A program made the position numbers and the translations under genes. A model generated the notes under the pieces. The model saw only the letters and a list, made by a program, of their open reading frames with translations. It had not been told where the DNA came from and ran no database searches. A stretch of DNA of 64,000 bases from Pseudomonas sp. R5-89-07 (GTDB taxonomy: Bacteria; Pseudomonadota; Gammaproteobacteria; Pseudomonadales; Pseudomonadaceae), in the NCBI RefSeq assembly GCF_003851685.1, contig NZ_CP027727.1:2480001-2544000 (forward strand), written 5' to 3'. Below, piece by piece: positions 31,291 to 41,064 of the stretch. Numbering within the stretch: position 1 is the stretch's first letter; each line of letters starts with the position of its first letter.

Positions 31291-32172
31291 ATGAACCCCT
31301 TCGAAGACATGCGCCTGTTCTGTCAGGTCATGGAATCCGGCAGCTTCACTGCCGCCGCCGAGCAACTGGGCCTGTCCAAACAGTTCGTCAGCCGCCGCCT
31401 GATCCAGCTGGAAGAGCGCCTCGGCGTGCGCCTGCTCAACCGCTCCACGCGCCGCCTGGATGTCACGCCGCTGGGCCAGAGCTACTACGAATCGGCCTTG
31501 CGCCTGCTCGGTGATGTGGAGCAAGTGGAGCAGGGCATCGCCGGGCAGAACAGCGAACCGCGCGGCACCATTCGTCTCAGCGCGCCATTGTCGTTTGCCA
31601 TGGCGCATCTGGGTTGCCTGTTGCCGCTGTTTCTGCAGCGCTATCCCGAGGTGGCGGTGGAAGTCGACCTCAGCGACCGCCCGGTGGACCTGATCGGCGA
31701 AGGCTATGACCTGGTGCTGCGGATCGGCACCCTGGAAGATTCCACCCTGATCGCCCGGCGTATTGCCAGCATCCCGAGGGTGTACTGCGCCAGCCCCGGC
31801 TACCTGGCCCTGCGCGGCACGCCGCAAAAACCCGATGACCTCGCCGGGCACGATTGCCTGCCGTACGGCCACGGGCGCCACGTGCAATGGCGCTTCAAGG
31901 GCAAGCTGCAAGCGTTGAACGTGAGCGGGCGCATGCGCGTCAATAACGGCGACCTGCTGCGTGACACCGCGATTGCCGGCCTGGGCGTGACCTACCTGCC
32001 GACCTTTATCGTCGGCGAGGCGTTGAAGGACGGCCGCCTGGTCAGCGTACTCGACGAATTCGCCCCCGAAGCCCTGACGCTCTCGGCGGTGTACCCCCAG
32101 CATCGGCAGAGTTCGCGGCCGGTGCAGGCGCTGGTCGAGTTCCTGCGCGAACGCCTGGCTAGCGGCTGCTGA
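31291..32172 (+). CDS. LysR-family transcriptional regulator
   Basis: LysR regulator of 293 residues from the ATG at 31291 (MNPFEDMRLFCQVMESGSF), with GAGAAG upstream. The HTH (residues about 1-60: FTAAAEQLGLSKQFVSRRLIQLEERLGVRL-type pattern) belongs to the large subgroup of LysR repressors acting on nearby oxidoreductases. The co-inducer domain follows (RGTIRLSAPLSFAMAHL). Its 3' end overlaps the convergent AraC gene by 14 bases. It is the nearest regulator downstream of the ABM-amidohydrolase-YcaC operon and a candidate controller. Confidence 0.88.
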   Translation: MNPFEDMRLFCQVMESGSFTAAAEQLGLSKQFVSRRLIQLEERLGVRLLNRSTRRLDVTPLGQSYYESALRLLGDVEQVEQGIAGQNSEPRGTIRLSAPLSFAMAHLGCLLPLFLQRYPEVAVEVDLSDRPVDLIGEGYDLVLRIGTLEDSTLIARRIASIPRVYCASPGYLALRGTPQKPDDLAGHDCLPYGHGRHVQWRFKGKLQALNVSGRMRVNNGDLLRDTAIAGLGVTYLPTFIVGEALKDGRLVSVLDEFAPEALTLSAVYPQHRQSSRPVQALVEFLRERLASGC

Positions 32173-33214
32173 ACAACTGCCGGATCAGGCTGGGGGTGCT
32201 GCCGGTCCAGCGCTTGAACGCGCGCCGAAAGTTCGCGGCGTCGCTGAAGTTCAGGTAAGCGGCTACTTCTTCGTTACTGAACCCTTTGGCCTGGTACAGG
32301 TGCAATGCCATGTGCTTGCGCACCCGGTCCACCTGTTGCTGAAAACCGGTGTCGTGCTTGTGCAGCTTGCGCTTGAGGGTGGCCGGGCTCATGGCGAAGG
32401 CCTGCGCGGCCTGTTCCAGGCTCGGTGGCTGGCGCACGTGGTCGCGCAGGTAGTCGTAGAGGCCGTCCAGAAAGCTCGCGGCAAAGCCCAACTGGTCGAT
32501 CTGTTCGCGGGCTTGCTGGCGCGCCACTTGCCCCGCCGTGGCCGAGGCACCAGGCCAGGCGCGGGTGAGGTATTGGCGGGGGAGGCACATCATGTCCAGC
32601 GGGCGTTCGAAGCGTGTTTGCTCGCCCAGGTGCACCCAGTACTGTTCGACATAGCGCGGCTCGGCATGGCTGAAACTGCACACCCAGGGCAGGCGTTCGC
32701 CGCTGAGCCATTGGCTCATGGCAACCAGCGAGGTCATGCTCGCTTCCAGCAGAAAGCGCCAGTGCTCGCCGGCGCCGCAGCTGTCCCGCCAGTACAGGTA
32801 AGCGTGCTGCTCATCCAACTCCAGGCGCAGCGTGGCCAGCGGGCTGAGCAGCACCTGTTGCTGGATAACAATCTCCAGGGCCTGATGCAGATTCTGTGCA
32901 TGCCCCAGGGCATGGCTGGCCGCGCCGTAGTAGCCGGGCAGCAGGCGTTGGCCAAACAGGAAGCTGCTGTCGTCGGCGTCCAGCAGCTTGCGGCTGTTGC
33001 CGATCAAGCCGAGGAACTGCTGCGGGCTCAAGCGTGCGTTGCCGGCCAGGATGTCTTCGTGGAACAGCCCGGTGCCGCGCAGCAGGCGATGGCTGTCGAT
33101 GTCCCGGGACAAGGCCAGGTCGATCAGTGTGGCGGGTTGGTAATGGCCGGGGATGAAGCGGCTGTCGTTTTCATACCCGCTGGTTTTCACGGCCACCTCA
33201 GGCGCTTTTCGCAA
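32159..33214 (-). CDS. AraC-family regulator with arabinose-operon-type sensor domain
   Basis: Regulator of 351 residues. The N-terminal about 220 residues match the HTH-associated sensor domain of OruR/ArgR-like AraC proteins (TLIDLALSRDIDSHRLLRGTGL; YYGAASHALGHAQNLHQAL). The C-terminal HTH pair (SLEQAAQAFAMSPATLKRKL and SNEEVAAYLNFSDAANFRRA) ends with the WTGSTPS signature. The start at 33214 overlaps the 3' end of the GGDEF gene by 17 bases, so the two are probably co-transcribed. It converges on a LysR gene with a 14-base overlap. Confidence 0.88.
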   Translation of the reverse strand: MRKAPEVAVKTSGYENDSRFIPGHYQPATLIDLALSRDIDSHRLLRGTGLFHEDILAGNARLSPQQFLGLIGNSRKLLDADDSSFLFGQRLLPGYYGAASHALGHAQNLHQALEIVIQQQVLLSPLATLRLELDEQHAYLYWRDSCGAGEHWRFLLEASMTSLVAMSQWLSGERLPWVCSFSHAEPRYVEQYWVHLGEQTRFERPLDMMCLPRQYLTRAWPGASATAGQVARQQAREQIDQLGFAASFLDGLYDYLRDHVRQPPSLEQAAQAFAMSPATLKRKLHKHDTGFQQQVDRVRKHMALHLYQAKGFSNEEVAAYLNFSDAANFRRAFKRWTGSTPSLIRQLFSSR

Positions 33215-34112
33215 GGGGTTGCTTGGCCCGCGCCAGCGCCAGGTTCAGGCGCTTGAGCAGCTCCTGGGGCGCCTCGTCCAGGGCCATTACCACCGCCGTG
33301 GTCGCCGCCAGTTGCAGGCGCTCCCCTTGCAGCCGGGTTTTGTGCGACAGGCTCTGCACCGCCTGCTGCAACTCCAGCGCCAGCTCCTTGGCCTGGCGCT
33401 CGCCGGTGTTGGGCAGCAGCACCACAAAACGGTCACCGGCCAGTCGGCATAGCAGGTCCTGGCGGCGCAGGTTGAGCAGCAGCACATGGCTGACCGCCTG
33501 CAGCACCGCATCGCCCTCGGCATGCCCGTAGGCCTGGTTGATGGCGGCAAAGTTGTCCAGGTCCACGGCCAGCAGCGACAGCGGTTGCTGCTGGTTGCGG
33601 CTGTCGTGCAAGCTGCCTTCGAGTTGGCGCTTGAGGTAATCGGCACCGGCCAGGGGCGTGAGTTTGTCGAACAGCCGATGCTCGCGGAACAGGCGCTCGC
33701 GCTTTTCCATCTGCGCGCTGATTGCCAGTTGCTCGCGGTGCCAGTGGTAGATGCCGATCGTCAGCAGGATCATGCCCACCGGCATCGGCCCCGACTCCAG
33801 CCAATGGTCCCAGGTGATGCTGTCGGGCAGGCGGATGAACTCGTCGAGGCTGTCGATCCACCAGGAAAAAAATATGCACGACAGGCCCAGTGCCAGGTAG
33901 TTGGTGACCCGTCCGGCGGGTCGGCTTTTCAGTACCAGGCCCAGCCAGATCAACGCGAGCAGCGCCGAACCGCCTTCGCCGACGATGTCCAGCCACTCCC
34001 ATTCGCTGATGCTTTTAAGCTCGCCGCAAGCCAGGTGCAGGATCAACCCGAGGTTGGCGGCGACCAGCAGCGCGGCGAGTTTCCAGCGATGGGGTGTGAG
34101 CACGGAAAACAT
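33198..34112 (-). CDS. Membrane GGDEF protein with degenerate active site
   Basis: Protein of 304 residues with four predicted membrane helices in the first about 130 residues and a C-terminal GGDEF-like domain. The signature reads AGDRF instead of GGDEF (in CRLAGDRFVVLLP), which should abolish diguanylate cyclase activity. The upstream DLDNFAAINQAYGHAEGD is conserved. An RxxD inhibitory-site motif (RRQD) lies five residues before the signature, so c-di-GMP binding is still possible. It lies upstream of, and overlaps, the AraC gene on the same strand. I infer a receptor or scaffold role. Confidence 0.82.
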   Translation of the reverse strand: MFSVLTPHRWKLAALLVAANLGLILHLACGELKSISEWEWLDIVGEGGSALLALIWLGLVLKSRPAGRVTNYLALGLSCIFFSWWIDSLDEFIRLPDSITWDHWLESGPMPVGMILLTIGIYHWHREQLAISAQMEKRERLFREHRLFDKLTPLAGADYLKRQLEGSLHDSRNQQQPLSLLAVDLDNFAAINQAYGHAEGDAVLQAVSHVLLLNLRRQDLLCRLAGDRFVVLLPNTGERQAKELALELQQAVQSLSHKTRLQGERLQLAATTAVVMALDEAPQELLKRLNLALARAKQPLAKSA

Positions 34113-34232
34113 GGCTGCGCGTCCTTGGATGATTCAATCGTGGGCGCCAGCACAGCAGATGAATATGACGGTTGCGTGACAGCGGGGGGAGGGTCGGATT
34201 AGCTCATGCCAAACACACGGGAGGTCAAAAAA

Positions 34233-34321
34233 TGTGGGAGGGGGCTTGCCCCCGATAGCGGTGCATCAGTCAATGGATATGCAGCTGACCCAACACCATC
34301 GGGGGCAAGCCCCCTCCCACA
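34233..34321. repeat. REP doublet, family A
   Basis: Inverted TGTGGGAGGGGGCTTGCCCC arms in the 380-bp gap between the divergent GGDEF and receptor genes. The rest of the gap holds the Pho-box-like promoter and about 120 bp before the doublet in which I see nothing else. Confidence 0.9.
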
Positions 34322-34403: not shown

Positions 34404-34437
34404 CTGTCACAGAACCGTCATCCCCCATCCCTAGCTT
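34404..34437 (+). promoter_or_regulatory. Pho-box-like site with -10 hexamer, receptor promoter
   Basis: CTGTCAC (34404-34410), AGAA, CCGTCAT (34415-34421): two 7-bp PhoB half-sites with the correct 4-bp spacer. Ten bases downstream lies TAGCTT (34432-34437), the expected place for the -10 element. The receptor ATG is at 34493. Confidence 0.75.
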
Positions 34438-34492
34438 GCCCTCCCAGTTGCCGGGCCTCTTGCCTGGCGCCAACGGATTTGGGGAGGGTTTC

Positions 34493-37006
34493 ATGTACAA
34501 GCGCACCGGGCTCGTCAGCTTCACGCTTAGCGCCTTGGCCCTGGCGATCATCTGCGAACGGCTCGACGCCGCCGAAGCGGCGACCACCGAGCACGTCGAC
34601 GTGGTGGGGCAGGCTGCCGCCATCGGCAGTGCCCTCAAGGAGCAGCGCAGCTCCGACAGCATCAAGAGCGTGGTGCATGCCGACGGCGTGGCGCAGTTGC
34701 CCGATGAAAACGTCGCCGAGGCGGTGCAGCGCCTGCCGGGGATCAGCGTCGAGCGTGACCAGGGCGAAGGCCGCTTTGTCAGCGTGCGCGGCCTGGGCCC
34801 GGACCTCAACAGCGTGACCATCAACGGCACCCTGGTACCGTCGCCCGAGAGCGAACGCCGCGCCGTGGCCCTCGACGTACTGCCTTCGGAACTGGTGCAG
34901 TCGCTGTCGGTGATCAAGACGCTCACGCCGGACATGGACGCCAACTCCCTCGGCGGTACCGTCGACGTGAAAAGCCTGTCGGCGTTCGACCACAAGGGCT
35001 TGTTCTACACCGGCAGCACCGAGGCCAGCTACGACAAGAACACGCGCCAGACCAGCCCGAAATTCTCCGGTGCCGCCAGCAACCGTTTCAGCCTGGGCGA
35101 CGGTATCGACAACTTCGGCGTAGCTGCCGCCCTCAGTTGGCAGAAGCGTGATTTTGGCTCGGACAACGTCGAAACCGGCGGCGCCTGGGATTTCAACAAC
35201 GGCGCCCGGCTCAATGAGTTCGAACAGCGCGACTACGACATCAGCCGCGAACGCGCCGGTGGCGGCCTGAACTTCGACTACAAGCCCGATGACCTGAGCA
35301 GCTACTATCTGCGCACCCTCTACAGCCGTTACAAGGACACCGAAACCCGCAACGCTGCCAGCCTCGAGTTTGCCGATCCCCAGGCGCCCGGCGAGTTGGG
35401 CGAGGCCGAGGGCAAGCGCAAGCTCAAGAACCGCGAGGAAACCCAGCAGATCCAGTCCTACGTGTTCGGCGGCGAACGCATGCTTGGCCTGTGGACCTTG
35501 AGCGGCCAGGCCGGCTACAGCCGCTCCAGTGAAGACAGCCCGGCGCATATCGCCGGCGCCACCTTCGACGGCGGGGATTTCGCCGACAGCGGCTTCTACG
35601 ACACGGCCAAGCCACGCCCGATCATCGGTAACGGCTTCTACGACGCCAGCAACTTCACCCTCGATAAAGTCGACTGGGAGAAACAGCACACCCAGGACAC
35701 CGAGAAAAACCTGCGCCTGGACCTGGCCCGCGACTACGACCTGGGTGGCTACGCGTCCCAGTTCAAGTTCGGCGGCAAGGTCAGCCGACGTCACAAGGAC
35801 AACGACCTGGAAGCCTGGGCCTACAAGGACCTGGATGAGCAGGGCTTCACTGACGAACAGCTCAACCTCACCCAGTTTCAGAAAGGCAACCTCGACTACC
35901 GCCTTGGCCGCTTCGGGCCGGGCATCAGCGCGGGCAATATTCGCCAACTGATTGGCGGCCTGAACCGCGACGACTTCTATGACCCGACCGAATCCCGGGT
36001 CAACGACTTCACCATCCGCGAAGACATCAACGCCGGTTACCTGATGAACACCCTCGATATCGACGACTGGCGCTTCATTGCCGGGATGCGCTACGAGGGC
36101 ACCGAGTTCGAAGCCAAGGGCACCGGCGCCACGGACGGCCAGTTCAGCGCCACCGAGACCAAGCGCCGCTATCACCACTGGCTGCCGGGCCTGCATGCGC
36201 GCTACCAGATCGACAAGAACACCCAAGTGCGCGCGGCCTGGACCAAATCCGTGGTGCGCCCGACCTTCGGCCAGCTGGCGCCCGGTTTCGTGATCGACGA
36301 TGACGAAGCCACCTTCGGCAACCCGGACCTCAAGCCCCTGGAGTCGAGCAACCTGGACCTGGGCATCGAACACTTCATGGGCCGTGCCGGCACCGTGTCG
36401 GCGTTCGTGTTCTACAAGGACATTCAGAACTTCGTCTACAACACCGACGTCGCCGGCACCGGCGCGTGGGCCAACTTCGCCGAGGCGCACACCTTCGCCA
36501 ACGGCGACAGCGCCAAGCTGTATGGGCTGGAGCTGGCCTATTCGCAAAAATTCGACTGGCTGCCGGCGCCGTGGAACGGCCTGCTGATCGGTGCCAACAG
36601 CACCTTCAGCCGCTCAAGCGCGGATATCGAAGGCTTTGACAACGCCAGCGGCCGCAACCGCAAGCGCAATATCAGCCTGCCCAACCAGTCGGACACCGTC
36701 GGCAACCTGATGCTGGGCTGGGAAGACGACAAGCTCAGCCTGCGCCTTTCGGCCAACTACAAGTCGGCCTACCTGTACGAGCTGGCCTCGATCAACGACA
36801 AGGCCCATGACCTGCACGTGGACGCGCAAACCTTCGTCGATTTCAGCGCGCGCTACTCGCTGACCAAGCAACTGCAAGTCAGCTTCGAAGCGCAGAACCT
36901 CACGGACGAGTCGTACTTCGTCTACACCGGCCACCGCAGCTACAACGGCCAGTACGAGGAGTACGGGCCTACTTACAAGCTGGGCCTGACTTTCACTCAT
37001 TTCTAA
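34493..37006 (+). CDS. TonB-dependent receptor, phytate module
   Basis: Outer-membrane receptor of 837 residues from the ATG at 34493, which has GGGGAGGG upstream; an in-frame TTG 57 bases earlier is rejected. There is a signal peptide (LVSFTLSALALAIICERLDAA), a plug (LPDENVAEAVQRLPGISVERDQGEG, SVRGLGPDLNSVTING), and a barrel ending in KLGLTFTHF. No STN signalling domain is present. The sequence type resembles receptors for non-siderophore ligands (IroN/CirA-like class with VRGLGPDLN). It is followed by a phytase and its own ExbB/ExbD/TonB, with Pho-box promoters, so phytate or an inositol-phosphate/metal complex is the inferred ligand. Confidence 0.85.
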   Translation: MYKRTGLVSFTLSALALAIICERLDAAEAATTEHVDVVGQAAAIGSALKEQRSSDSIKSVVHADGVAQLPDENVAEAVQRLPGISVERDQGEGRFVSVRGLGPDLNSVTINGTLVPSPESERRAVALDVLPSELVQSLSVIKTLTPDMDANSLGGTVDVKSLSAFDHKGLFYTGSTEASYDKNTRQTSPKFSGAASNRFSLGDGIDNFGVAAALSWQKRDFGSDNVETGGAWDFNNGARLNEFEQRDYDISRERAGGGLNFDYKPDDLSSYYLRTLYSRYKDTETRNAASLEFADPQAPGELGEAEGKRKLKNREETQQIQSYVFGGERMLGLWTLSGQAGYSRSSEDSPAHIAGATFDGGDFADSGFYDTAKPRPIIGNGFYDASNFTLDKVDWEKQHTQDTEKNLRLDLARDYDLGGYASQFKFGGKVSRRHKDNDLEAWAYKDLDEQGFTDEQLNLTQFQKGNLDYRLGRFGPGISAGNIRQLIGGLNRDDFYDPTESRVNDFTIREDINAGYLMNTLDIDDWRFIAGMRYEGTEFEAKGTGATDGQFSATETKRRYHHWLPGLHARYQIDKNTQVRAAWTKSVVRPTFGQLAPGFVIDDDEATFGNPDLKPLESSNLDLGIEHFMGRAGTVSAFVFYKDIQNFVYNTDVAGTGAWANFAEAHTFANGDSAKLYGLELAYSQKFDWLPAPWNGLLIGANSTFSRSSADIEGFDNASGRNRKRNISLPNQSDTVGNLMLGWEDDKLSLRLSANYKSAYLYELASINDKAHDLHVDAQTFVDFSARYSLTKQLQVSFEAQNLTDESYFVYTGHRSYNGQYEEYGPTYKLGLTFTHF

Positions 37007-37024
37007 CCCACACCTGGCTCCAAC

Positions 37025-37113
37025 TGTGGGAGGGGGCTTGCCCCCGATTAGGGGGTGTCAGTGATGCATCTATGACTGACCCACTGCTATCGGGGGCAAG
37101 CCCCCTCCCACAT
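37025..37113. repeat. REP doublet, family A
   Basis: Inverted REP arms between the receptor and phytase genes on the same strand. In this position it may affect mRNA stability and relative expression of the two genes. Confidence 0.88.
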
Positions 37114-37148
37114 TGGATCTTCATCGTATCTAAAGGATTTGTTTGTCC

Positions 37149-39008
37149 ATGAGAATTTGTAAGCTGTTGCTGTTGATGGCTCTTTCAGGCCAGGTGTTCG
37201 CAGTTGACCTGGCCTTGACCCCGTGGGCACCCGGCCTGAAGGTCGAAGCGGTCGCCTTCCTGCCCAACGCCACCCAGCGCCTGGCCGCCAGTGTCCGCGA
37301 TGGCCTGTTGCTGCTTGACGATAAAGGCACCGAACTGGCCCGCTTCAAAGGCAGCTTCAGCAGCCTCGATATCCGCGCTACAGATACCGGGGTGCTGGTC
37401 GCCAGCCTCGACAACGACCGCCAGCAGGTGGCGCTGATCAACCTCGAGGTCGCCAGCAAAACCTGGGGCACGCCGCTGTACCTGCCTGCCCGCGATTACC
37501 CGGTAAACGGTGTGTGCCTGTACCGCGATTCGGCGGCCAACCTGTTTGTGTTCCTGGTGGGCGAGGAGGGCAAGGGCGAGCAGTGGCTGGTGGGCAACGG
37601 CGCGACGCTGCTGGCCCAGGCGCAGCGCGTACGCGGCCTGCCGCTGCCGCCTTCGGCGCAGTTCTGCCAGGTGGACGATGCGGCCGAGCGCCTGGTGGTC
37701 AACGAAGAGAACGTTGGCTGGTGGGCCTACCCGGCGCACCCGGAAGCCGAGGTGAAACGCACACCCGTGGCGCTGTTCGACAGCCCCAGGCGCGAAGCCG
37801 GCGCCATCGCGCTGATGCCGGGCGGGATGCTGGCGCTGGACCCGAAAACCGCACAGTTGCATCTGTTCCAGCACACCGGCGAACGTTGGGCCGAGCAATC
37901 AAGCCTGAGCTTGCCGGGCCTCAAGGAGCCTGAGCAACTGGCGATCAACGGTCGGCAGCTGCTGGTGCGCGATGACGACAGCGGCCAGCTCTATCAGGGC
38001 CAACTCGACTGGCAGCCCACGCCGGTGCCGCCGGCTCCGGTGCTGCCCCAGGTCGCCGCGCTGCGCCAGACCGAACCGGTGAGTCGCCAGGGCGATGCGG
38101 CGGATGATCCTGCGATCTGGGTTCACCCGCACACACCCGCGAAAAGCCGGGTGCTGGGCACCAACAAGAAACAGGGCCTGCTGGCCTACGACCTCGACGG
38201 CAAGCTGCTGCAGGAACTGGCCGTGGGGCGCCTGAACAACGTCGACATACGCCCCAACTTCAAGCTTGGAACGCAGACCGTCGACCTCGCCGTCGCCAGC
38301 AATCGCGACCGCAACAGCCTGAGCCTGTTCAGCATCGACCGCCAGAGCGGCGAGCTGCAGGAAGCCGGCGAAGTGCCGACGCCGCTCAAGGAAATCTACG
38401 GTATGTGCCTGTTCCAGCCCGCCAGCGGGGAAATCTATGCAATCGCCAATGGCAAGGACGGCACCTTCCTGCAATACCGCTTGAGTGCGCCAGGCGGGCG
38501 TGTGCAGGGCGAGCTGGTGCGCCAGTTCAAGGTCGACAGCCAGCCGGAAGGCTGCGTGGCCGACGATCAGCGCCAGCGCTTGTTTCTGGGTGAGGAAGAC
38601 GTCGGTGTGTGGACCGTGGATGCCCGCGCCGACCAACCGGCCACGCTGACCAGTGTGATCAAGGTCGGCGCCCAGTTGCATGCCGACGTCGAGGGCCTGG
38701 CGCTGTACCAGAGCCCGGCGCGGGATTACCTGGTGGTCTCAAGCCAGGGCAATGACAGCTACCTGGTGCTCGACGCCGAACCGCCGTTCGCCGTGCGCGG
38801 GGCCTTTCGCGTCGGCTTGAACGCTGCCGCCGGCATCGATGGCGCCTCGGAAACCGATGGCCTCGAAGTCACCGCCATCAACCTCGGAGGGCCTTGGAGC
38901 CAGGGCATGCTGGTGGTGCAGGACGGGCGCAAGCGCATGCCCGAGCAAACCCAGAACTTCAAGTTCGTGCCCTGGGCCGAGGTGACCCGCGCCTTGGAAT
39001 TGCCCTGA
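37149..39008 (+). CDS. Two-domain beta-propeller phytase
   Basis: Secreted 3-phytase-like phosphatase of 619 residues that releases phosphate from phytate with calcium. A signal peptide (MRICKLLLLMALSGQVFA) starts at the ATG at 37149. The C-terminal half (about residues 300-619) holds the beta-propeller phytase hallmarks GDAADDPAIWVHP, TNKKQGLLAYDLDGK, LNNVDIRPNF, QPEGCVADD and DVEGLALY. The N-terminal about 290 residues form an incomplete, diverged propeller, as in known dual-domain phytases. It follows the TonB-dependent receptor and precedes ExbB/ExbD/TonB. The substrate is inferred from family and from the phosphate-type promoters. Confidence 0.93.
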   Translation: MRICKLLLLMALSGQVFAVDLALTPWAPGLKVEAVAFLPNATQRLAASVRDGLLLLDDKGTELARFKGSFSSLDIRATDTGVLVASLDNDRQQVALINLEVASKTWGTPLYLPARDYPVNGVCLYRDSAANLFVFLVGEEGKGEQWLVGNGATLLAQAQRVRGLPLPPSAQFCQVDDAAERLVVNEENVGWWAYPAHPEAEVKRTPVALFDSPRREAGAIALMPGGMLALDPKTAQLHLFQHTGERWAEQSSLSLPGLKEPEQLAINGRQLLVRDDDSGQLYQGQLDWQPTPVPPAPVLPQVAALRQTEPVSRQGDAADDPAIWVHPHTPAKSRVLGTNKKQGLLAYDLDGKLLQELAVGRLNNVDIRPNFKLGTQTVDLAVASNRDRNSLSLFSIDRQSGELQEAGEVPTPLKEIYGMCLFQPASGEIYAIANGKDGTFLQYRLSAPGGRVQGELVRQFKVDSQPEGCVADDQRQRLFLGEEDVGVWTVDARADQPATLTSVIKVGAQLHADVEGLALYQSPARDYLVVSSQGNDSYLVLDAEPPFAVRGAFRVGLNAAAGIDGASETDGLEVTAINLGGPWSQGMLVVQDGRKRMPEQTQNFKFVPWAEVTRALELP

Positions 39009-39009
39009 G

Positions 39010-39027
39010 CTGTCATCACCCGGTCAT
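39010..39027 (+). promoter_or_regulatory. Second Pho-box-like site, before exbB
   Basis: CTGTCAT (39010-39016), CACC, CGGTCAT (39021-39027): a perfect half-site, a 4-bp spacer and a one-mismatch half-site. T-rich TTTAAT follows at about the -10 spacing (39033-39038). The site starts two bases after the phytase stop. Confidence 0.72.
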
Positions 39028-39055
39028 CCGTTTTTAATCGAATAGGAGCTTCACC

Positions 39056-39748
39056 ATGCACGCGACGATGGAACATATGACGATCTGGAGTTTGATCAGC
39101 GACGCCAGCCTGTTGGTCAAGGCGGTGATGGTCACGTTGTTGCTGGCCTCCTTGACCAGTTGGTACTTGATCATCCGGCGCGGCAGCGTGCTGCGGCGCC
39201 TGGAGCGGCAGTTGCACGATTTTCTGGTGCGCTTTCGCGCCGCCACGGATTTGCAACCCTTGTACCGCCAGGCCGTGCAGGCGGGCGAGGGCGGGGTGGC
39301 GCCGATCTTTATCGCCGGCCTGCAGGAATACCAGCACCTGCACAACCATGACCCCGCCGTGCTCGAAGGCGTAGAGCGCGCCTTGCAGGTGGCGATCACC
39401 GAGCAGGAGATGGAACTGGAAAAGGGCCTGCAATTTCTCGCGACGGTGGGCTCGGTCAGCCCCTATATCGGTCTGTTCGGCACGGTGTGGGGCATCATGA
39501 ATTCCTTCCTCGGCTTGTCCCAGGTGCAGCAGGCCACGCTGTCGACGGTGGCGCCGGGCATCGCCGAGGCCCTGATTGCCACGGCCATCGGCCTGTTTGC
39601 GGCGATCCCGGCGGTGATTGCCTACAACCGCTTCGCCGCGCGTAGCCAGACCCTGCTCACTCGCTACTACGCCTTCGGCAACGAACTGCAAGTGCGCTTG
39701 CACCGTGCCCTGCGGGGCACCCCGATCAACCTGGCCGTGGCCGCCTGA
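39056..39748 (+). CDS. ExbB/TolQ-type proton channel subunit
   Basis: Inner-membrane protein of 230 residues, MotA/TolQ/ExbB family, which with ExbD uses the proton gradient to energise TonB. Three membrane helices are visible: SLLVKAVMVTLLLASLTSWYLI, FLATVGSVSPYIGLFGTVWGIM with the family GLFGTVWG motif, and IAEALIATAIGLFAAIPAVIAYN. TAGGAG precedes the ATG at 39056. It starts a tight exbB-exbD-tonB cluster (15-bp gap, then a 4-base overlap) that follows the phytase gene and has its own Pho-box-like site. Confidence 0.92.
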   Translation: MHATMEHMTIWSLISDASLLVKAVMVTLLLASLTSWYLIIRRGSVLRRLERQLHDFLVRFRAATDLQPLYRQAVQAGEGGVAPIFIAGLQEYQHLHNHDPAVLEGVERALQVAITEQEMELEKGLQFLATVGSVSPYIGLFGTVWGIMNSFLGLSQVQQATLSTVAPGIAEALIATAIGLFAAIPAVIAYNRFAARSQTLLTRYYAFGNELQVRLHRALRGTPINLAVAA

Positions 39749-39763
39749 ACAAGGAGCGAACCG

Positions 39764-40210
39764 ATGTTGACCAGGCCGCAACGCAAGCACGGGCCCAAGG
39801 CCGAAATGAACGTGGTGCCCTACATCGACGTGATGCTGGTGCTGCTGGTGATCTTCATGGTCACCGCGCCCATGCTCACCCAGGGCGTGAAGATCGAGTT
39901 GCCCAAGGTCGCCGCCGAGGCGCTGGCCAGCGACACCCGCCAGCAGATCCTGACCTTGTCGGTGAAGGCGGACGGCGGCTACTACTGGAACCTGGGCGGC
40001 GAGCTCGACACCCGCAACCAGACCGACAGCGCGGTGAGCCTGGAGGAAATGGGCGCCAAGGTGACGCAAGTGGTGGCGGCGCGCAGCGACACCCAGGTGT
40101 ATATCCGCGCTGACGACAACGCCGGGTACGGCCGCGTGGTGGCGGCCATGGCGGTGTTGCAAAAGGGCGGGGTCAGCAACCTGGGGCTGGTGACCGAGGC
40201 CCCGCAATGA
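39764..40210 (+). CDS. ExbD/TolR-type subunit
   Basis: Protein of 148 residues with a single N-terminal membrane helix carrying the family aspartate (MNVVPYIDVMLVLLVIFMVT) and a periplasmic domain beginning GVKIELPKV. It pairs with the upstream ExbB to energise TonB. The TGA overlaps the tonB ATG by four bases, indicating coupled translation. Confidence 0.92.
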   Translation: MLTRPQRKHGPKAEMNVVPYIDVMLVLLVIFMVTAPMLTQGVKIELPKVAAEALASDTRQQILTLSVKADGGYYWNLGGELDTRNQTDSAVSLEEMGAKVTQVVAARSDTQVYIRADDNAGYGRVVAAMAVLQKGGVSNLGLVTEAPQ

Positions 40211-40956
40211 CCGCGATGATCATGCACGGCCCGACGCGGGCGCCAGACAGCGACGCGATGTGGCGCCACGGCCTGGCCGCCAGCCTGGCCGTGGCGCTGC
40301 ATGTGGGGGTGGTGGCGGCATTGATGCTGGGCTGGTCCACCGAGAAACCGCAGGTGGACGCGCCACGGGTGATGCACACGCAACTGGTGGTGATGCCCGC
40401 GCCGACGCCTGCGCCTGCGCCGGTAGCGCCCGCATTGCCAGAGCCTGTTGCGGTCCCGGTATCGGTGCCAGTCAAACCGACGGTTGACCCACAAATCCAG
40501 GCGCAAAAACTCGAGAAAGCCGCCCTGGCGCGCAAGCGGGTCGAAGAGAAAAAAGCCGAGCAGCAACAGCAGCGCCTGGCCACCGAGCAGCGTAATCGAG
40601 AGCTGGAGCAGCAACGTCAGAACCAGCAGCGTGTGGCTTCCGAGAAAGCCCAAGCCGCCGTGCCGGCACCCGCTCCGGCGTTCGACAGTCGTCAATACCA
40701 GCCGTTGAGCAAGGAAGCACCGGACTACCCTGAGCGCGCGCTGGACAAGAACATCGAAGGCGACTGCTCGGTGGAATACACCGTCAATACCCAGGGCCGC
40801 GTGGAAAACCCCAAGGTGTTGGACGGCTGTCACCCGTTGTTCATTCGGCCTTCATTGGCGGCGGCGAATACCTTTCGCTACCAACCGAGGATGGTCGACG
40901 GCCAGGCCGTGGCGGTACCGGCGGTGCGCAACACCTTCCACTACCGCATCAAATAA
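40207..40956 (+). CDS. TonB-family energy transducer
   Basis: Protein of 249 residues. One N-terminal membrane helix (HGLAASLAVALHVGVVAALMLGW) is followed by a proline-rich spacer, a glutamine/lysine-rich coiled-coil-like stretch (about residues 98-145), and a C-terminal TonB/TolA-like domain (YPERALDKNIEGDCSVEYTVN to the NTFHYRI end). A cysteine pair in the C-terminal domain (GDCSVEY, LDGCHPL) could form a disulphide. Being encoded with its own ExbB/ExbD and next to one receptor suggests a dedicated TonB. Confidence 0.88.
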   Translation: MTAMIMHGPTRAPDSDAMWRHGLAASLAVALHVGVVAALMLGWSTEKPQVDAPRVMHTQLVVMPAPTPAPAPVAPALPEPVAVPVSVPVKPTVDPQIQAQKLEKAALARKRVEEKKAEQQQQRLATEQRNRELEQQRQNQQRVASEKAQAAVPAPAPAFDSRQYQPLSKEAPDYPERALDKNIEGDCSVEYTVNTQGRVENPKVLDGCHPLFIRPSLAAANTFRYQPRMVDGQAVAVPAVRNTFHYRIK

Positions 40957-40974: not shown

Positions 40975-41064
40975 TGTGGGAGGGGGCTTGCCCCCGATAG
41001 CAGTGTGTCAGTCTCTACATCCATGGCTGATCCACCGCTGTCGGGGGCAAGCCCCCTCCCACAT
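40975..41064. repeat. REP doublet, family A
   Basis: Inverted TGTGGGAGGGGGCTTGCCCC arms between the convergent tonB-like and dehydrogenase genes. Confidence 0.9.

Follow-up and report, generated by a model that had tools for sequence, protein, structure and literature searches.

The window, a 64,000-nucleotide stretch of the Pseudomonas sp. R5-89-07 genome (contig NZ_CP027727.1, positions 2,480,001 to 2,544,000, forward strand), carries five genes on one strand that encode a TonB-dependent receptor, a two-domain beta-propeller phytase and an ExbB/ExbD/TonB trio. The locus is real and widely conserved in Pseudomonas and, judged by its sequence, is reasonably likely to serve the acquisition of phytate under phosphate starvation. 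Phytate is a main organic form of phosphorus in soil and a phosphorus store of plants, and in 92 of the 298 Pseudomonas species genomes surveyed the locus supplies a candidate receptor, motor and likely switches for it.

Gene content and conservation

The five genes are:

34493..37006, + strand: TonB-dependent receptor, TIGR01782 type (model match)
37149..39008, + strand: two-propeller phytase, catalytic domain C-terminal (domain match, structure and site checks)
39056..39748, + strand: TolQ-like ExbB (TIGR02796 tolQ, 248.5 bits, cut-off 221)
39764..40210, + strand: ExbD/TolR protein (TIGR02801 tolR, 138.7 bits, cut-off 127.3)
40207..40956, + strand: TonB (PF03544, 7.4e-15)

A first-pass annotation had read this gene set from the sequence, and it is confirmed here. 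The phytase domain (PF02333) scores 295.4 bits against a cut-off of 21, and both the propeller fold and the active-site residues are present; the ligand positions are kept and the active site is intact. The channel, ExbD/TolR and TonB C-terminal domains (PF01618, PF02472, PF03544) lie side by side.

Relatives were surveyed in 298 Pseudomonas genomes, with the source genome counted in; the counts are inflated by relatedness, and 71 nonredundant loci were used for some tests. The phytase search gave 94 matches, two of which (G015 and G087, E ~5e-4) were spurious and were dropped. The remaining 92 phytase genomes are exactly the 92 that carry the receptor at E <=1e-150. Phytase matches are cut or broken in three of these (G038, G076, G286), whose loci were left out; on contig 137 of G286 the phytase and receptor matches are each split into two pieces. 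The search for a conserved gene order, which the annotation had proposed, found receptor-phytase-exbB-exbD-tonB on one strand in all 88 other relatives.

Of the 92 phytase genomes, 88 hold a match to the module ExbB above 280 bits, as does one genome lacking phytase (G209); in two of the four phytase genomes below that score (G028, G161), a more distantly related ExbB occupies the position. The best ExbB matches of the other genomes (E 4e-79 to 5e-57; none in one genome) are, among the matches listed, 61–63% identical, and we take these to be TolQ. The module ExbB itself passes the tolQ model and falls under the cut-off of the exbB model (165.5 against 206.2), and it is 60.6% identical to the TolQ of its own genome versus 40% to the nearest ExbB there. 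A search of solved structures ranks TolQ before ExbB for this protein, while solved ExbD and TolR score alike against the module ExbD. The module proteins join TolQ in an ExbB tree, together with one ExbB of the same genome on a very long branch; most forks of the tree are weak, so the TolQ-likeness rests on identity and model scores. It seems that a Tol-type motor has been recruited to work with TonB. There are six TonB-C-type matches in the genome, the local one among them, so the receptor might in principle be served by a different TonB.

Three inverted pairs of the repeat GTGGGAGGGGGCTTGCCCCC, presumably of the repetitive extragenic palindromic type, are located before the receptor promoter (34233-34321), between receptor and phytase (37025-37112) and past tonB (40975-41063). 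Such pairs may affect mRNA ends.

Beyond the genus, a search of 369 genomes of the class for PF02333 gave 11 that contain it, the source genome included; nine loci were read from the ten others, a fragment in G506 being omitted. In seven of the nine, the phytase has a receptor match next to it, which bears out the pairing cited as known in the annotation and reportedly described by Lim et al. in 2007. The module ExbB, ExbD and TonB have no match in the nine loci. One locus from another genus (L276) has receptor, phytase and PhoX genes in a row.

Pho-like boxes and promoter geometry

The putative promoter elements of the locus are:

34404..34421, + strand: Pho-like box of the receptor promoter (motif scan, relatives)
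34432..34437, + strand: -10 hexamer TAGCTT, 10 bp past the receptor box (relatives, genome scan)
39010..39027, + strand: Pho-like box before exbB (motif scan, relatives)
39038..39043, + strand: -10-like TCGAAT at a 10 nt spacing (N10), inside the conserved block ATCGAATAG (alignment)
34165..34182, - strand: third Pho-like box, 52 bp before the ATG of a divergent GGDEF gene (1 mismatch)

Counted in the window alone, the Pho pattern is not significant. A scan of the whole genome with CTGTCAYNNNNCTGTCAY gave 98 sites with up to two mismatches versus 53 for the reversed pattern, and three of the 11 sites with no more than one mismatch fall in this locus. When TAGNNT at N10 was added, 15 sites remained (reversed pattern: 2). 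Among these the receptor site, with one mismatch, is one of the four best; the exbB site has two mismatches, as does pstS, and the GGDEF-gene site has three. Genes next to other sites, named by model, are pstS (TIGR02136) and phoB (TIGR02154), both over cut-off, a pstC-like frame that is cut off by the end of its locus (TIGR02138, E 8e-7, under cut-off), and a PhnR-like phosphonate regulator (286 bits, cut-off 296.75). The top-scoring Pho-type promoters include those of loci L284 and L283 (genome positions 2035957 and 1747389), one standing ahead of the PhnR-like regulator and the other ahead of a frame without a Pfam match. The spacing from receptor box to -10 is the same as at pstS and the pstC-like gene.

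Conservation of the boxes was compared with shuffled sequences (20 per sequence) as the main control, which was preferred because the reversed motif probably overlaps the true repeat. The counts at up to 1, 2 and 3 mismatches are:

Receptor: 63, 84 and 89 of 89 loci; shuffles 0, 0.17 and 1.5%; reversed motif 4, 8 and 45 of 89
exbB: 21, 54 and 72 of 89 loci; shuffles 0, 0.11 and 0.67%; reversed motif 0, 0 and 5 of 89
GGDEF gene: 24, 52 and 64 of 75 loci with the gene; shuffles 0, 0.07 and 2.4%; reversed motif 1, 11 and 33 of 75
Directly before phytase: 0, 0 and 1 of 87 loci; reversed motif 0, 0 and 0 of 87

The two boxes that the annotation had noted, at the receptor and exbB, are backed by relatives and shuffles, the exbB box being the weaker. 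The -10 hexamer, also claimed there to be correctly spaced, follows the receptor box as TAGC[GT]T at N10 in 82 of 89 loci, the geometry of pstS. By sequence, then, a Pho-regulon promoter architecture, with the box and a -10 in place of a -35 region, is present at the receptor gene, and comparison across genomes supports the idea of phosphate control.

Box-aligned exbB upstream regions (57 with up to three mismatches, among the 71 nonredundant loci) are mostly 70–99% identical both in the box columns, which were chosen by the motif, and in the ATCGAATAG block after it, which was not; a few of these columns reach 40–60%, and columns outside 30–60%. The distance to the ATG varies: among the 54 exbB boxes with up to two mismatches, 18 stand at 68–73 bp and 14 at 27–28 bp. 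With an exbB spacer of 47 bp in the window, the predicted start falls at the ribosome site.

Upstream regions of 450 bp were also scanned for seven receptors of the distant loci. A Pho-type box followed by TANNNT at N10 was found in three, with two mismatches in L277 (~81 bp before the frame start) and three each in L279 and L281, and in none of the other four.

The divergent GGDEF-AraC pair and the receptor leader

Further features on either side of the receptor promoter are:

33198..34112, - strand: membrane-type protein with a degenerate GGDEF domain (AGDRF, I-site RRQD; PF00990, 8.4e-34)
32159..33214, - strand: AraC-family regulator, overlapping the 3′ end of the GGDEF gene (PF12625, 1.1e-22; PF12833, 2.1e-15)
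34438..34492, + strand: receptor mRNA leader, with hairpin 34449-34456/34462-34469
34438-34445 with the ribosome-binding stretch 34482-34489, + strand: candidate pairing (permutation test)

The GGDEF gene diverges from the receptor gene, and the pair stands behind the third Pho-like box. The module had been called self-contained; the linked gene set stands, but the description needs widening to include this pair. All phytase genomes but two (G240, G273) have the GGDEF gene, 90 of 92 in total, and so do two genomes without phytase (G056, G094). The gene was found on the opposite strand within the retrieved stretch in 74 of 88 loci; among the 80 named loci used for these counts, the six without it have stretches that end within ~3.2 kb upstream of the phytase. 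An AraC-type gene, with Arabinose_bd and helix-turn-helix domains, is adjacent on the same strand in every named locus with the GGDEF gene (74 of 74). The two matches range from a 13 bp overlap to 31 bp apart in these loci, and they are 58–92% identical. Genomes G056 and G094, like G209 with its module ExbB, have neither a phytase nor a receptor match, and their copies are possible remnants of loss.

Among 78 copies of the GGDEF protein, 74 could be read: the A-site is AGDRF in 72, AGDRY in one (L276) and SGQRF in one (L281), and the RxxD I-site is present in all 74, lying five residues ahead of AGDRF in the window protein. We infer that the E-to-R change abolishes synthesis of cyclic diguanosine monophosphate (c-di-GMP); the protein is probably a c-di-GMP sensor. 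The AraC-type protein may bring substrate control.

Three of the nine distant loci (L276, L277 and L281) also have a GGDEF gene diverging from the receptor, followed by an AraC-type gene; in L276 (3228-12128) both diverge from the receptor-phytase-PhoX row. As the pair recurs and the TonB trio is unmatched in the nine loci, the pair is the older in partnership.

The receptor leader is well conserved, its first part being covered by the alignment, and could fold into a hairpin and a second helix that covers the ribosome site. RNAalifold found no pairs in a MAFFT alignment of 84 leaders. The stability of the window leader alone is not unusual (z -0.83); the mean z of the 84 leaders is -1.12, with 51 below -1. 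The hairpin was found in 80 of 80 leaders, a weak result as a best-hairpin search always returns something. In the 41 of 80 leaders that could be aligned, 91.4% of its cells are paired versus 32–49% when it is slid, and two pairs are changed on both sides; shuffles reach these values in 1–19 of 500 cases, and one outer pair fails in 20 of the 41. A permutation test of the ribosome-site pairing, using 80 of the 84 distinct leaders (four have no G-run), gave 43 of 5000, and an internal control piece 1675 of 2000, relatedness being left uncorrected. Model R1, built from the leader, matches a single place in the genome, and the only Rfam matches, to miRNAs, score below the gathering thresholds. 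Overall, the case for a conserved hairpin is fair, and that for a helix masking the receptor ribosome site is only suggestive.

Alternatives, mechanism and known systems

Several observations weigh against phosphate-starvation phytate uptake, some bearing on its regulation and others on its cargo. The exbB box has more than two mismatches in 35 of 89 loci, and in this genome it lies very near the ATG with a less typical -10. An exoproteome study, limited for strain SBW25 to culture supernatant, reports no evidence that the phytase of this strain, a possible orthologue of the module phytase, is regulated by PhoBR, and its authors propose phytate itself as the controller (PMC5082522). Bean leaf extract, unlike apoplast fluid, raised a P. 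syringae pv. phaseolicola phytase, likewise a possible orthologue, 3.2-fold (PMC2803797); the response fits substrate or plant induction, and it is ambiguous on regulation. The conserved AraC-type gene of the locus offers an alternative controller.

AraC-family proteins can bind short direct repeats, and the local AraC-type regulator might therefore be what recognises the three boxes. In this main rival reading, the boxes would belong to that or another regulator answering phytate or plant signals, and PhoB would have little or no part. The reading agrees with the SBW25 and leaf-extract results, with the constant AraC-type neighbour (the 74 named loci, L276, L277 and L281), with the presence of all three boxes in this one locus and with a second half-site that is often CCGTCAT or CGGTCAT. 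However, the half-sites and N10 spacing are shared with pstS and the pstC-like gene, and the L279 stretch gave no AraC match although it contains a Pho-type box; we consider this alternative unlikely.

As to the cargo, the receptor has no close solved relative, its nearest by sequence being colicin I, iron and haem receptors (E 6e-11 to 1e-6 only), and its structure model is too poor to interpret (predicted local distance difference test score 65.8). Its conserved basic residues gave no substrate hint. Phytate is a strong iron binder, and the receptor might import iron-phytate or another metal chelate, the cluster serving iron supply. This is highly improbable: Fur control, which the annotation had named as the counter-case, left no trace, in that no Fur-box-like sequence rose above the shuffled background in the 71 nonredundant loci; the locus has Pho-like boxes instead, and PhoX stands beside the receptor-phytase pair in L276.

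The phytase may also be secreted and act outside the cell, so that the receptor takes in only lower inositol phosphates or another product. No lipobox was flagged by script in 68 of 89 phytases, that of the window among them, which would allow secretion, and PhyA of a rice-pathogenic Xanthomonas is described as secreted and may serve phytate use (PMC9403785). Against this, 17 of the 21 flagged phytases have D, E or Q following the cysteine and resemble lipoproteins, which suggests a membrane-tethered or cell-bound enzyme, and a receptor found in exactly the phytase genomes suits import of the substrate itself. A secreted phytase with import of products alone is rather unlikely.

What the sequence itself establishes is the gene set and its linkage, the conservation of the boxes and of their spacing, an intact phytase site and a degenerate GGDEF site. 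Under phosphate-starvation control, scarcity of inorganic phosphate (Pi) would lead phosphorylated PhoB to bind all three boxes, those of the receptor gene, of exbB and of the divergent GGDEF-AraC pair. The phytase, having no Pho-like box of its own, would probably be transcribed by read-through from the receptor promoter. The receptor, energised by TonB and the TolQ-like ExbB/ExbD motor of the locus, would carry phytate, metal-phytate or a lower inositol phosphate over the outer membrane, and the phytase, cell-associated in the periplasm, would release Pi there for the Pst system. The most likely part of the AraC-type protein would be to add substrate-specific control, and that of the GGDEF protein to bind c-di-GMP at its I-site and tie the response to surface or biofilm state. 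A full scheme of multi-level gating is doubtful; here PhoB would activate the receptor, the TolQ-type TonB motor and the pair, the AraC-type protein would add a substrate signal, the cyclase-dead GGDEF protein would read c-di-GMP at its I-site and tune uptake or attachment to surface state, and the leader would mask its own ribosome site.

The literature searched, judged by titles and the start of abstracts and with subscription papers mostly outside its coverage, held no study treating the locus as a unit, nor was a phytate transporter of the Pseudomonas outer membrane described in it. Known phytase-receptor pairs share the pairing, and the nine loci of the class are without matches to the module ExbB, ExbD and TonB. 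A dedicated TonB under Pho control, called unusual in the annotation, has a precedent in P. aeruginosa exbB2-exbD2-tonB4, which is transcribed at low Pi and requires PhoB and sigma-VreI (PMC4971064). The likeness to this PUMA3/Vre system lies in a PhoB-dependent TonB system responding to low Pi (PMC4971064, PMC7035377). The P. aeruginosa genes are, however, co-transcribed with a two-partner secretion gene and need sigma-VreI, whereas the module joins its TonB genes to a receptor and phytase, and no gene for an extracytoplasmic function sigma factor was found among its scanned neighbours.

The PhoB regulon of Caulobacter includes TonB-dependent receptors and a phytase, a close likeness, but the available part of that source describes no dedicated TonB complex or GGDEF partner (PMC11208175). 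Pho control also meets c-di-GMP signalling in the RapA/LapD circuit of P. fluorescens (PMC3032545); RapA is a phosphodiesterase, whereas the partner here has a GGDEF domain only, its site is degenerate, and its gene is tied to genes for nutrient uptake. Set beside these systems, what is new is a motor resembling TolQ, a structured leader, and a degenerate GGDEF protein linked to the locus together with its AraC-type neighbour. The linkage of a c-di-GMP-type protein and an AraC-type regulator to the module lets one ask why uptake and surface signalling go together.

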